Of a stretch of DNA of 64,000 nucleotides, positions 6,093-11,266 are shown in pieces. The notes under the pieces are model-generated. The model saw only the letters and a program-made list of their open reading frames with translations. It made no database searches and was not told the origin of the DNA. Within the stretch, counting starts at the first letter, position 1. Every line of letters begins with the position of its first letter. The position numbers and the translations under genes are program-made. The stretch is from Modestobacter excelsi (lineage in GTDB: Bacteria; Actinomycetota; Actinomycetes; Mycobacteriales; Geodermatophilaceae), in contig NZ_SJEX01000001.1 of assembly GCF_005930495.1 (NCBI RefSeq), forward strand, positions 1-64,000, read 5' to 3'.

Positions 6093-6572
6093 GTGCTGGA
6101 GCTGGGCAAGAGCGGGTCGCAGGGCACCGGGAAGGGCACCATCCCGGTGCTCTCCGACGGTGCCGTCGTGGCCACGTTGCACGCCTCGAACTGGAAGGAG
6201 GCGGCCACGGCCGAGGTGGGGGAGCGGTCGTGGGTGTTCCGTCGCCGGGGTGGGCGCGAGCTGACCGGCCGGTGGGCGGCCGACCCTGAGGACGCCGTCC
6301 GGCTGCGGGCGCGGCAGACGTCCTCCTGGCGGGGCACCTGGACGATGGAGCTGGACGGCGTCGCCGTCACCGTCACGTGGGCCTCCCGCTGGAAGGGCAC
6401 CCACAGCTACGTCGTCGACGGCCGGCAGGTGGCCGAGAGCGGCAGACGGTCCACGCGGCCGACGCTGACCACCGATCCGGGGCTCCCGCTCGACCACGCC
6501 GTCTTCATGCTGTGGGTCGAGCTCGTCCTCGGTCGGCGCTCGGCCACGGCTGCGGCTGCGGCGGCGGTCTGA
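6093..6572 (+). CDS. Conserved hypothetical protein upstream of dnaG
   Basis: A 159-residue soluble protein with many beta-strand-like stretches rich in Trp and Thr (SSWRGTWTMELDGVAVTVTWASRWKG, broken here only by eye). No catalytic motif recognised. The GTG start has a strong GAGGAAGGA box 5 nt upstream. Its TGA shares one base with the dnaG ATG, so the two are translationally coupled. The Ala-rich tail is low complexity. Confidence 0.7.
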   Translation: MLELGKSGSQGTGKGTIPVLSDGAVVATLHASNWKEAATAEVGERSWVFRRRGGRELTGRWAADPEDAVRLRARQTSSWRGTWTMELDGVAVTVTWASRWKGTHSYVVDGRQVAESGRRSTRPTLTTDPGLPLDHAVFMLWVELVLGRRSATAAAAAAV

Positions 6573-8947
6573 TGGCCGGGCGGGGACGCATCAGGGCCGC
6601 GGACATCGCGCTGGTCCGCGAGCGGTCCAAGATCGACGAGATCATCGGCGAGCACCTGCAGCTCAAGCGCGCCGGCGGCGGCAGCCTCAAGGGGCTGTGC
6701 CCGTTCCACGACGAGAAGTCGCCGTCGTTCAACGTCACCCCCTCGCGGAACCTGTTCCACTGCCTCGCGGGCGAGACGGGGGTGCTCACGGAGGACGGGA
6801 CCGTCCCGATCCGTGAGCTCGCCGGCAAGACGGTGCGGGTGCTCAACGGGGACGGCGGCTGGGTCGAGGCGCCCTTCCGCAGCTACGGCGTCCAGCGCCT
6901 GATGCGCATGACGCTGACCCGCAACGGACGGACCAAGGTCGTCCACGCGACGGACGAGCACCGCTGGTTCGTCCCGTCCGGGGCCCTCCGCCAGCACCGC
7001 CGGGAGAAGCTGACCAAGGACCTCCAGCCCGGCGACCGGCTATGCCACTCGCTCGTGCCGACCCGAGAGCTCGTCTCGGCTGGTGTGAGCCCGGCCGCCG
7101 ACACCGCCGGCGCTCACGTCCCGGCGCCCGTCGCTGGCGACCTCGACTGGGTCGTCCAGTCGGTGGAGTGGAGCGACCGGGTCGAGGAGGTCTTTTGCGC
7201 GGAGGTCCCGGGGACCCACGCCTTCACGCTCGAGGACAACCTGCTGACCGGCAATTGCTTCGGTTGCGGGGAAGGCGGCGACGTCATCGCCTTCATCCAG
7301 AAGATCGACCACCTGTCCTTCACCGAGGCGGTCGAGCTGCTCGCCGGCCGCACCGGGGTGCAGCTCCAGTACGAGGACGACGGCGGCCGCGGCACCGCCG
7401 GGCCGAACCGTGCGCAGGCCGGGCAGCGGGCCCGGCTGGTCGCGGCCAACACCGCCGCCGCGGAGTTCTACGCCGCCCAGCTGATGACCCCGGACGCCGC
7501 GCCGGCGCGCACGTTCCTCGCCGAGCGTGGCTTCGACCGCCAGGTGGCGCTGGACTTCGGCTGCGGCTACGCCCCCGGCGGTTGGGACACCCTGACCCGG
7601 CACCTGCGCGGGCTCGGCTACACCCAGGAGGAACTGGTCACCGGCGGGTTGGCGAAGGAGTCCTCCCGGGGCACCCTCATCGACCGGTTCCACCGCCGGC
7701 TGATGTGGCCGATCCGCGACCTGACCGGCGACGTCATCGGGTTCGGCGCCCGCAAGCTGATGGACGACGACCAGGGCCCGAAGTACCTGAACACCCCCGA
7801 GACGCCGCTGTACAAGAAGAGCACCGTCCTCTACGGCGTGGAGCGGGCCAAGCGGGACATCGCCCGCAGCCACCAGGCCGTCGTCGTCGAGGGCTACACC
7901 GACGTGATGGCCTGCCACGTCGCCGGCGTGACCACCGCGGTCGCCTCCTGCGGGACCGCGTTCGGCGCCGAGCACATCAACGTGCTGCGCCGGCTGCTGA
8001 TGGACCAGGACGAGTTCCGCGGTGAGGTGATCTACACCTTCGACGGTGACGCGGCCGGTCAGGCGGCGGCGATGAAGTCCTTCAAGGAGGATCAGCGCTT
8101 CGTCGCGCAGACCTTCGTGGCGGTCGAGCAGGACGGGCGCGACCCCTGCGAGCTGCGCCAGGCGCACGGCGACGCCGCCGTGCGCGACCTGATCGCCCGG
8201 CGGACCCCGCTGATCGAGTTCGTGCTGCGGACGACGCTCGACGGCTACGACCTGGACACCGTCGAGGGCCGGGTCGCCGCCCTGGACAAGACCGCCCCGC
8301 TGCTGGCGCAGATCAAGGACCACGCGCTCCGCCCCGCCTACGCCCGCCGGTTGGCCGGCCTGCTCGGCCTGCCCGACGAGGCCGACGTCGTCGCCAAGGT
8401 GCGCCAGCTCTCCGGCGAGGGCGGGCAGGAACGGCCGCGCTCCCGCCCGCGGACGCCGCAGCGCTCGCCGGAGGACGCCGCGCTCGAGGTCGAGCGCGAG
8501 GCCGTCAAGGCAGCGCTGCAGTGCCCGGAGATCGCCGGACCGGACTTCGACGCCGTCGCGCCGAGCTCGTACACCGACCCGGACTACGCCGCGGTGGCGG
8601 CCGCGGTCGCCGGAGCCGGGGGAGCGGCTGGCGCGACGACGTCCGGGCCGGCGTGGCTGGAGGAGGTCTCCGCGCACGTCGACCGGGACTCGGCGAAGGC
8701 GATGCTGACCGCGCTGGCGGTGGAGCCGATGCACAGCGTCGGGGAGAACGACCCCGGCTACGTCAACGCGCTGATGGCCCGGCTGCAGCTGATGGCGACC
8801 GACCGTGAGGTGGTGGCGGTGAAGGGCAAGCTGCAGCGCACCAACCCGGTCGAGGCCCAGGACGAGTACATGAAGGCCTTCAAGAAGCTCATCGACCTGG
8901 AGCAGCTGGCCCGGTCGTTGCGCGCCCGGGCGGCGGGTGGGCTGTGA
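6572..8947 (+). CDS. dnaG: DNA primase containing a mini-intein
   Basis: Synthesises RNA primers at the replication fork. The precursor is 791 residues; removing the 165-residue intein (64-228) leaves 626, normal for DnaG. The zinc-binding domain ligands are Cys43, His46, then Cys229 and Cys232 after the intein (CFGCGEGGD). The RNA polymerase/Toprim core shows EGYTDVM, FDGDAAGQAA and CGTAFGAEH. The C-terminal helical region ends near LEQLARSLRARAAGGL. The ATG overlaps the upstream stop by one base, and the next gene starts within the dnaG stop (GTGA). Splicing must occur to restore the zinc site, since the intein separates its two halves. Confidence 0.95.
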   Translation: MAGRGRIRAADIALVRERSKIDEIIGEHLQLKRAGGGSLKGLCPFHDEKSPSFNVTPSRNLFHCLAGETGVLTEDGTVPIRELAGKTVRVLNGDGGWVEAPFRSYGVQRLMRMTLTRNGRTKVVHATDEHRWFVPSGALRQHRREKLTKDLQPGDRLCHSLVPTRELVSAGVSPAADTAGAHVPAPVAGDLDWVVQSVEWSDRVEEVFCAEVPGTHAFTLEDNLLTGNCFGCGEGGDVIAFIQKIDHLSFTEAVELLAGRTGVQLQYEDDGGRGTAGPNRAQAGQRARLVAANTAAAEFYAAQLMTPDAAPARTFLAERGFDRQVALDFGCGYAPGGWDTLTRHLRGLGYTQEELVTGGLAKESSRGTLIDRFHRRLMWPIRDLTGDVIGFGARKLMDDDQGPKYLNTPETPLYKKSTVLYGVERAKRDIARSHQAVVVEGYTDVMACHVAGVTTAVASCGTAFGAEHINVLRRLLMDQDEFRGEVIYTFDGDAAGQAAAMKSFKEDQRFVAQTFVAVEQDGRDPCELRQAHGDAAVRDLIARRTPLIEFVLRTTLDGYDLDTVEGRVAALDKTAPLLAQIKDHALRPAYARRLAGLLGLPDEADVVAKVRQLSGEGGQERPRSRPRTPQRSPEDAALEVEREAVKAALQCPEIAGPDFDAVAPSSYTDPDYAAVAAAVAGAGGAAGATTSGPAWLEEVSAHVDRDSAKAMLTALAVEPMHSVGENDPGYVNALMARLQLMATDREVVAVKGKLQRTNPVEAQDEYMKAFKKLIDLEQLARSLRARAAGGL
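6761..7255 (+). other. Mini-intein inside DnaG zinc-binding domain
   Basis: In-frame 165-residue insertion between NLFH and CFGCGEGGD. Block A begins with Cys1 (CLAGETGVLT), block B is ATDEHRWF (TxxH), block F is VEEVFCAEVPGTHAFTL and block G ends NLLTGN before Cys+1. The penultimate residue is Gly rather than the usual His. There is no room for a LAGLIDADG or HNH homing endonuclease, so this is a splicing-only element. The family call follows from the ordered blocks and from the perfect restoration of DnaG on removal. Confidence 0.92.
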
Positions 8948-9878: not shown

Positions 9879-9951
9879 TCCCCCGTAGCTCAATTGGCAG
9901 AGCATGCGACTGTTAATCGCAGGGTTATAGGTTCAAGTCCTATCGGGGGAG
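9879..9951 (+). tRNA. tRNA-Asn (GUU)
   Basis: 73-nt cloverleaf: acceptor TCCCCCG/CGGGGGA with discriminator G9951, D stem GCTC/GAGC, anticodon stem TGCGA/TCGCA with loop CTGTTAA (anticodon GTT), T stem ATAGG/CCTAT with loop TTCAAGT. CCA is not encoded. Its 3' half is the attachment site of the island to the right. Confidence 0.97.
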
Positions 9952-9952
9952 C
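9915..9952 (+). repeat. Left attachment-site copy (tRNA-Asn 3' half)
   Basis: 38 nt running from the 3' side of the anticodon loop to one base past the discriminator. It recurs at 26834-26871 with three mismatches in the same orientation. A tyrosine recombinase gene starts 79 nt downstream, the classic arrangement of tRNA-integrating elements. Confidence 0.8.
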
Positions 9953-10030: not shown

Positions 10031-11266
10031 ATGGGACGACCGCCGCTGCCGGTGGGCACCTTCGGCAAGATCGGCCTCCTGCTCCTGTCCAGCGGTGAGG
10101 TCCAGGCCCGCGCCCGGTTCCGGGACTTCGACGGCCGCACCCGGCTGGTCTCCAAGACCGGCGCTTCCCGCGCTGCCGCTGAGCGGGCGCTGAAGACCGA
10201 GCTGGCCGCCCGCCGTGGGCCCGGGGGAGCCGGTGCGATCACTGCGGGTTCCCGGGTGTCGGCGCTCGTCGACGTGTGGCTGGACACCGACCACGGCTGG
10301 TCGACCGGCACCGAACGCACCTACCGCTCGGTGATCCGCACCTCGGTGCTGCCCGCCTTCGGCCAGCTGACCCTGCAGGAGGTCACCCCCGGCCTGGTCG
10401 GCCGCGCGCTCACCGCGATCGCCAAGACCAGCGGGCCCGGTGCCGCCAAGACCGCCCGCGCCTGCCTGTCGAGCATGTTCTCCCTCGCCATCGACGACGG
10501 CGCCCTCACCGCCAACCCCGTGCGCGACGCCACCGTCCGGATCGACACCACCGCCAAGAAGGCACCGCGGGCGCTGACCGTCGAGCAGACCACCCAACTG
10601 GTGGAGCTGTTCCGCAACAGCCCGCGGGCGGCCGAACTGGATCTGGCCGACATCGTCGACTGGATGCTGGCCACCGGCGCCCGGATCGGGGAGGCGGTGG
10701 CACTGCGGACCGGGGAGACCGCCGGACGGCCACTGCTGGACCTGGACGCCGGCACCTGGGAGGTCAACGCCACCGCGGTGCGGGTGCCCAAGCGGGGGAT
10801 GGTCGTCCAGCCGCGGACCAAGACCGCCGCCGGCTGGCGGATCATCGCGGTGCCCGAGTTCGCGGTGGAGATGGTGCGCCGTCGATTGGATGCGCCGCTG
10901 CGGCCCGACACTGAGCTGGTCTTCCCAGCGCCGTTCGCCGGGACGCTGCGAGACCCGAACAGCGTGTCCGGTGAACTACGCCAGCTGCTGGACTCCTTTG
11001 ACTGCGACGCCTGCCACGGGACCGGTTTCCAGCCGGCGACGAGCACGTCGGCGGCCGGTCGCCCGGTTCGCTGCACTGAGGGGCCGTGGTCCTGGGTCAC
11101 CTCGCACACCTTCCGCAAGACCGTCGCCACCCGCCTGGACGAAGCCGGGTTCACCCCGCGGCAGGTGGCCGACCAGCTCGGCCACGCGAACCCGTCGATG
11201 ACCCTGGACGTCTACTTTGGCCGCCAGGTCGTCAGCGCCGAGGCTGCCCGGGTGCTGGGCAGGTGA
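10031..11266 (+). CDS. Tyrosine recombinase (island integrase)
   Basis: Site-specific recombinase expected to integrate and excise the island at tRNA-Asn. 411 residues: N-terminal AP2-like arm-binding part, SAM-like core-binding domain (about 75-175), then the catalytic domain. Catalytic residues: Arg in ATGARIGEAVALR, HTFRKT (HxxR), LGHAN and the nucleophile Tyr in LDVYFGR. Between the first Arg and HTFR lies an insertion with CDACHGTG and a later Cys in VRCTEG, resembling a CxxCxGxG zinc knuckle. It appears intact, and a relic of a close homologue lies at 17203-17535. RBS GAGGGG; start ATG. Confidence 0.93.
   Translation: MGRPPLPVGTFGKIGLLLLSSGEVQARARFRDFDGRTRLVSKTGASRAAAERALKTELAARRGPGGAGAITAGSRVSALVDVWLDTDHGWSTGTERTYRSVIRTSVLPAFGQLTLQEVTPGLVGRALTAIAKTSGPGAAKTARACLSSMFSLAIDDGALTANPVRDATVRIDTTAKKAPRALTVEQTTQLVELFRNSPRAAELDLADIVDWMLATGARIGEAVALRTGETAGRPLLDLDAGTWEVNATAVRVPKRGMVVQPRTKTAAGWRIIAVPEFAVEMVRRRLDAPLRPDTELVFPAPFAGTLRDPNSVSGELRQLLDSFDCDACHGTGFQPATSTSAAGRPVRCTEGPWSWVTSHTFRKTVATRLDEAGFTPRQVADQLGHANPSMTLDVYFGRQVVSAEAARVLGR

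Follow-up and report, generated by a model that had tools for sequence, protein, structure and literature searches.

An endonuclease-less mini-intein at a zinc-ribbon cysteine of the DNA primase DnaG of Modestobacter excelsi

Introduction

In Modestobacter excelsi, the gene for the DNA primase precursor (dnaG, 791 aa) lies at 6572–8947 on the forward strand of the window, i.e., of the whole 64,000-nucleotide stretch analysed here. Codons 64–228 of this gene (165 codons; window 6761–7255) form an in-frame, stop-free insert that is preceded by LFH and followed by CFGCGEGG, within the zinc ribbon. The original prediction took this insert to be a mini-intein set directly before a zinc-ligand cysteine, through which zinc or thiol oxidation could act on replication priming. 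The questions raised by the locus are therefore what the insert is, which residue would start its removal, and whether its position implies control of primase by metal or redox state.

The features referred to below (window coordinates, all on the forward strand) are:

6572–8947, forward: dnaG, encoding the 791-aa DNA primase precursor; no other CHC2 gene was found (Pfam and NCBIfam models; CHC2 search of the same genome)
6698–6709, forward: N-extein CPFH, in which C43 and H46 are the positions of zinc-ribbon ligands 1 and 2 (alignment to 1d0q and 2au3)
6761–7255, forward: mini-intein, 165 aa, no endonuclease domain (family models, structure model, empty sites in 12 of 22 congeners)
6761–6763, forward: intein Cys1, which in the precursor takes the sequence position of zinc ligand 3 (Cys1 in 55 of 55 inteins at the site)
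6947–6967, forward: block B, ATDEHRW, with Thr64, His67 and Trp69, the last being B:12 of the WCT motif (alignment; motif as defined in PMC3196547)
7046–7147, forward: linker that replaces the LAGLIDADG domain of full-length relatives, modelled as disordered (alignment, pLDDT, dN/dS)
7196–7198, forward: Cys146 at block F:4, a candidate for the attack that opens a class 3 reaction (55 of 55; definition from the same paper)
7247–7255, forward: block G, Thr163-Gly164-Asn165, i.e., the G:5 Thr of WCT, the penultimate Gly and the terminal Asn (TGN in 55 of 55)
7256–7267, forward: C-extein CFGC with C+1, zinc ligand 3 once spliced, and C+4, ligand 4 (alignment to 1d0q and 2au3)

Results and Discussion

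Identification of the insert as a mini-intein

The Pfam CHC2 zinc ribbon matched the protein in two pieces, one on each side of the insert. When the genome was searched for CHC2, only these two halves of dnaG were returned; a single CHC2-type primase gene was thus found. The insert itself was matched weakly by Pfam Intein_splicing (E 8e-5) and by NCBIfam intein_Nterm (E 4e-4), both below the curated cut-offs. A sequence search of the PDB gave nothing significant. The AlphaFold model of the intein, built with 32 aligned rows, had a mean pLDDT of 85.8 and was compared with the PDB by Foldseek. It matched 57 chains at E ≤ 0.001, the best being NpuDnaB (E 3.3e-7), and the class 3 structures 6rix, 6riy and 6bs8 were among the matches. 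A model of precursor residues 1–268 (mean pLDDT 78.1) matched 61 chains at the same threshold. The Hint fold of inteins is thus present in the predicted, as distinct from a solved, structure of the insert, and the window copy carries the splicing-block residues C1, H67, N165 and C+1.

Intein_splicing was the sole Pfam match of the window copy, in agreement with the predicted loss of the endonuclease. Among 32 members of the family scanned, LAGLIDADG_3 was matched in 20; 20 of the 32 were full-length, the two counts not being paired member by member. The linker was modelled with a pLDDT under 50 over residues 102–125. The calculated masses are 85.5 kDa for the precursor, 67.5 kDa for spliced DnaG and 18.0 kDa for the intein; the bands predicted earlier were 84 and 67 kDa.

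Occupancy of the site in related genomes

The zinc domain of a natural empty site (L012) was used as query against 112 Geodermatophilaceae genomes. Since this query is uninterrupted, occupied sites appear as split matches. It was observed that 105 genomes matched, 74 contiguously and 30 as split matches, with one match cut off (G002); the other seven were unmatched. In the 30 occupied sites the insert had 313–315 residues in 21 cases and 153–209 residues in nine, the window copy being one of the nine. Among 22 congeners the site was empty in 12, full in five, short in one (G008) and cut off in one, and three were unmatched. In the uninterrupted orthologues the flanks are precisely restored. 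The empty sites expected in sister species were therefore found, and a normal DnaG insertion of this family, named in the original prediction as the finding that would overturn it, was ruled out by their number in the genus and the family. Taken together, the comparisons confirmed at the sequence level that window 6761–7255 is a mini-intein within DnaG, without an endonuclease domain.

In a search of 397 genomes of the order, relatives of the intein were detected in 34 at E ≤ 0.001, and in 28 of the 397 the intein was at the same DnaG site. The other six matches comprised two genomes with an RtcB intein only (G306, G204) and four weak matches (G045, G357, G366, G386). A scan of genome contigs gave 53 loci, of which 52 were at the CHC2 site of DnaG and one (L114) was in another gene, while a phylum-wide profile search gave 4 of 396 genomes at E ≤ 1e-6, the M. 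excelsi genome included. The hosts of the DnaG-site intein were Modestobacter, Blastococcus, Geodermatophilus, Trujillonella, Goekera, Nocardioides, Actinoallomurus, Actinomadura, Jiangella, Actinocatenispora, Mangrovactinospora and several MAGs, one of Acidimicrobiia and one of Rhodospirillales among them; one record, titled Bacillus, is marked unverified. The intein is a member of a family carried in DnaG by Geodermatophilaceae and other actinobacteria, its outliers being the Acidimicrobiia MAG, the Rhodospirillales MAG and the plasmid relaxase gene described next. For the residue counts given below, 55 inteins were read at the DnaG site; L114, which is not at this site, and L031, whose FFC junction is an empty site, are outside this set.

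The same CHC2 site is also occupied in a plasmid relaxase of Skermanella rosea with TrwC, AAA and CHC2 domains. On plasmid pSR-4 (L146:449-5911), this relaxase-helicase with a CHC2 finger carries a full-length relative at the same zinc-finger position, a possible conjugative route between phyla.

Related inteins were also seen in RtcB (NCBIfam NF052663) of three genomes of the order (L059, L060, L061), and one genome (G023) has a full intein in RtcB in addition to a short one in DnaG. The RtcB inteins share Cys1, HRW, the F:4 Cys and C+1 with the DnaG inteins, and L059 is 42% identical to the window intein over the aligned row. They differ in the host gene and in being full-length, and two of the three end in TRN instead of TGN.

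DnaG was already known as an intein host, and the element belongs to a known kind. A review table names DnaG among bacterial intein hosts, in a passage that gives neither site, class nor organism (PMC5874633). A literature search, with most subscription papers outside its coverage, found no paper describing the DnaG intein site.

Which cysteine would start splicing

The features above point, with high probability, to a mobile intein that has lost its endonuclease and must splice itself out to give a working primase, and for which no host role has to be assumed. Splicing would begin with attack on the His63-Cys1 bond, either by Cys146 (the class 3 route, marginally favoured) or by Cys1 (the class 1 route). 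The N-extein would then be transferred to C+1, Asn165 would cyclise, and the exteins would be joined, with C+1 becoming zinc ligand 3.

In the definition of PMC3196547, a class 3 intein has Trp at B:12, Cys at F:4 and Thr at G:5 (WCT). The window intein has all three, as W69, C146 and T163, a motif overlooked in the original prediction, which had assumed a class 1 reaction started by Cys1; the Cys1 and TxxH residues of that chemistry are indeed present (C1, T64). Cys1, AT..HRW, the F:4 Cys and TGN were found in 55 of 55 inteins at the site (the F:4 Cys of Blastococcus endophyticus was missed by the pattern, and was read separately and counted), so that C1, C146 and C+1 are invariant in the set. 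The Trp is partly preselected in this census because HRW is part of one of the two patterns used in the scan; in the pattern-free order-wide set, HRW was present in 28 of 28. The penultimate Gly, earlier called unusual, is the rule here: Gly precedes the last Asn, and the penultimate His is absent, in all 55, and phage inteins with Gly at this position have been described (PMC5050341).

Among 27 viral relatives, several of which are near-copies of one another, Cys1 was present in 26 and the F:4 Cys in all. The +1 residue was Cys in all 25 that were readable, the end block of L134 and L135 being unread. Thr at G:5 is replaced by Ser in two loci (L143, L144), and two others (L118, L129) retain the penultimate His.

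A class 1 intein that merely carries an F:4 Cys, with Cys1 starting the reaction and Cys146 replacing the usual Asp, would account for much of this. Cys1 is nearly universal in both sets and the TxxH Thr occurs in 55 of 55; an invariant Cys1 and a Thr in block B are as compatible with class 1 as with class 3. PMC3196547 also mentions class 1 inteins whose F:4 residue is Cys. Moreover, two papers (PMC7891396, PMC7664689) define class 3 more strictly, by the absence of Cys, Ser or Thr at the N-end, the former being a survey. Because Cys1 is present, in the window as in the rest of the 55, we have not filed the intein as strict class 3. Against the class 1 reading stand the presence of every WCT position together with the loss of the penultimate His in all 55 inteins, and the viral copy L137, which has Pro at position 1 yet HRW, the F:4 Cys and TGN. 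We give the class 1 reading somewhat less than an even chance and lean slightly to Cys146 as the probable first nucleophile.

The viral contig L137, with its Pro at position 1 and the other motifs retained, offers a natural test of whether Cys1 is required.

We compared the window intein with DnaBi1, the class 3 intein of mycobacterial DnaB (PDB 6bs8, 6own). Both are mini-inteins in replication proteins and have WCT, and the window model matched 6bs8 chains in the Hint fold with a TMt of 0.74–0.79. According to PMC6195587 and PMC7360933, DnaBi1 has Ala1, Ser+1, a block B Asp and a penultimate His, where the window intein has Cys1, C+1, Thr and Gly.

A further parallel may exist in the literature on mixed motifs. 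Tori and Perler (J Bacteriol, 2011) reportedly described inteins in which class 1 and class 3 motifs occur together, among them the TOPRIM intein of Nocardioides sp. JS614, which is said to pair an N-terminal nucleophile with WCT. On that description it would resemble the window intein in this combination; since nocardioids carry the DnaG-site intein, it may also share the site.

The zinc site and the possibility of zinc or redox control

With the empty-site protein L012 as query, C+1 of the window protein aligned with zinc-ribbon cysteine number three in the primase chains 1d0q and 2au3, as had been predicted; the aligned primase residues are those which we take to bind zinc. The zinc-ribbon positions are C43, H46, C64 and C67 in the empty-site protein, and C43, H46, C229 (C+1) and C232 in the precursor. 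Residue 64 of the precursor is the intein Cys1, and the C43-H46-C64 spacing is the same before splicing. With Cys1 at the position of ligand 3, the precursor holds C, H and C in register, and a hybrid zinc site that ties up the splicing cysteines is possible. The earlier claim that unspliced primase lacks a complete zinc site was accordingly not established.

The original prediction raised the idea of a switch on replication priming. With Cys1 and Cys146 added as targets, precursor-bound zinc or oxidised catalytic cysteines would keep DnaG unspliced until conditions improve. Besides the register of Cys1 with C+1, itself a zinc-ribbon position, the idea draws on the class 3 DnaB intein, where zinc binds the F:4 Cys118 and blocks splicing (PMC7360933) and H2O2 links Cys118 to Cys48 (PMC6195587). 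In this genome a second intein, too, stands ahead of a metal-cluster cysteine. However, 74 of the 112 family genomes lack the intein, so any such control is dispensable, and zinc and oxidants act on cysteine inteins through general chemistry. The redox partner Cys48 has no conserved counterpart in the DnaG-site inteins: of 12 short inteins, nine contain no Cys beyond Cys1 and that at F:4, and the extra cysteines of the others (C95 in the window copy, C92 in L067, C118 in L068) are in the linker or in unconserved places. A pair of the Cys48-Cys118 kind was therefore rejected. The insertion point, too, needs no regulatory reason. Invariant sites close to active centres are the preferred targets of inteins, and the DnaG-site family always has Cys at +1 where this could be read, so that insertion ahead of an invariant Cys is expected without regulation. 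We consider the switch unlikely.

Its most specific form, a hybrid site of C43, H46, Cys1 and C+1 or C+4 that acts as a zinc-gated maturation lock on replication priming, appears less likely still. One zinc ion would in that case immobilise both Cys1 and C+1, and splicing, and with it working primase, would wait until the zinc left or was chaperoned away.

The second intein (G000:C135:31687-32166, minus strand; L147:604-2301) looks unrelated to that of DnaG. Its host is an Rv2578c-type radical SAM protein (NCBIfam NF038136, E 3e-244), and it ends in VVSHN directly before the third Cys of CxxxCxxC, C+1 again being at a metal-ligand position. These two proteins gave the only Intein_splicing matches in the genome.

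Selection, decay and mobility

Between the window copy and G008, dN/dS was 0.06 for intein residues 1–95, 0.03 for the last 37 residues and 0.09 for the extein, compared with 0.39 for the linker (33 codons). For the splicing blocks, values of 0.03–0.10 were obtained against G006, G007 and G008. The splicing blocks are thus under purifying selection and the linker is not. A dead insert, or a normal lineage-specific one that is no intein, would agree with the weak family-model scores, but is highly improbable given the precise empty sites of 12 congeners, the intein fold, the retention of all splicing residues at low dN/dS and a genome without a second CHC2 gene to stand in for a broken one.

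A quick maximum-likelihood tree of the DnaG exteins was made from 68 rows, leaving out L096, L110 and L117 (short C-exteins) and L146 (the relaxase). On this tree the distinction between empty and not empty required 10 changes, nine of them forced by starred (well-supported) branches, and the short state required seven, six of them forced. The window copy grouped with G008 (short) and with G006 and G007 (full). Modestobacter muralis (full) and G010 (empty) adjoin and have nearly the same exteins; Modestobacter caceresii (full) groups with G018, G013 and G001 (empty), its exteins being nearly the same as those of G018. In 60-base windows, full/empty pairs were mostly 86–100% identical, and no clear conversion tract was seen in these windows. 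The tree of the inteins by themselves was poorly resolved, with stars on just 3 of its 53 inner branches; on it the short state required eight changes, of which only three were forced.

The repeated switches of state on the DnaG tree are best read as the usual course of a mobile intein that is gained, decays and is lost. Together with the conserved splicing blocks and the unconserved linker, they fit a cycle of homing, endonuclease decay and loss. dnaG is essential, and here it is single-copy; since the insert can be lost only by precise deletion, this would account for its retention, and the intein needs no role for the host.

Two possible origins were considered for the window copy. DNA identity to G006, G007 and G008 was 88–90% in the intein and about 95% in the extein, which indicates faster change and no clear swap, and a recent wholesale replacement of the intein was rejected. 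A phage database was likewise set aside as a direct source: 99 phage records matched, all under 60% identity, the best being the ribonucleotide reductase of Thermobifida phage P318 (49.5% over 60% of the query).

Close relatives offer a natural series in which a single zinc-finger site is empty, holds the full intein or holds a shortened one. This series is suited to testing which of the three invariant cysteines starts splicing in inteins of mixed class 1/class 3 type, and whether an essential enzyme becomes responsive to a metal when an intein sits on a ligand of that metal.

Just downstream of dnaG, a tRNA-Asn gene (9879–9952) is closely followed by a tyrosine integrase gene (10031–11266), an arrangement that suggests an integration site.
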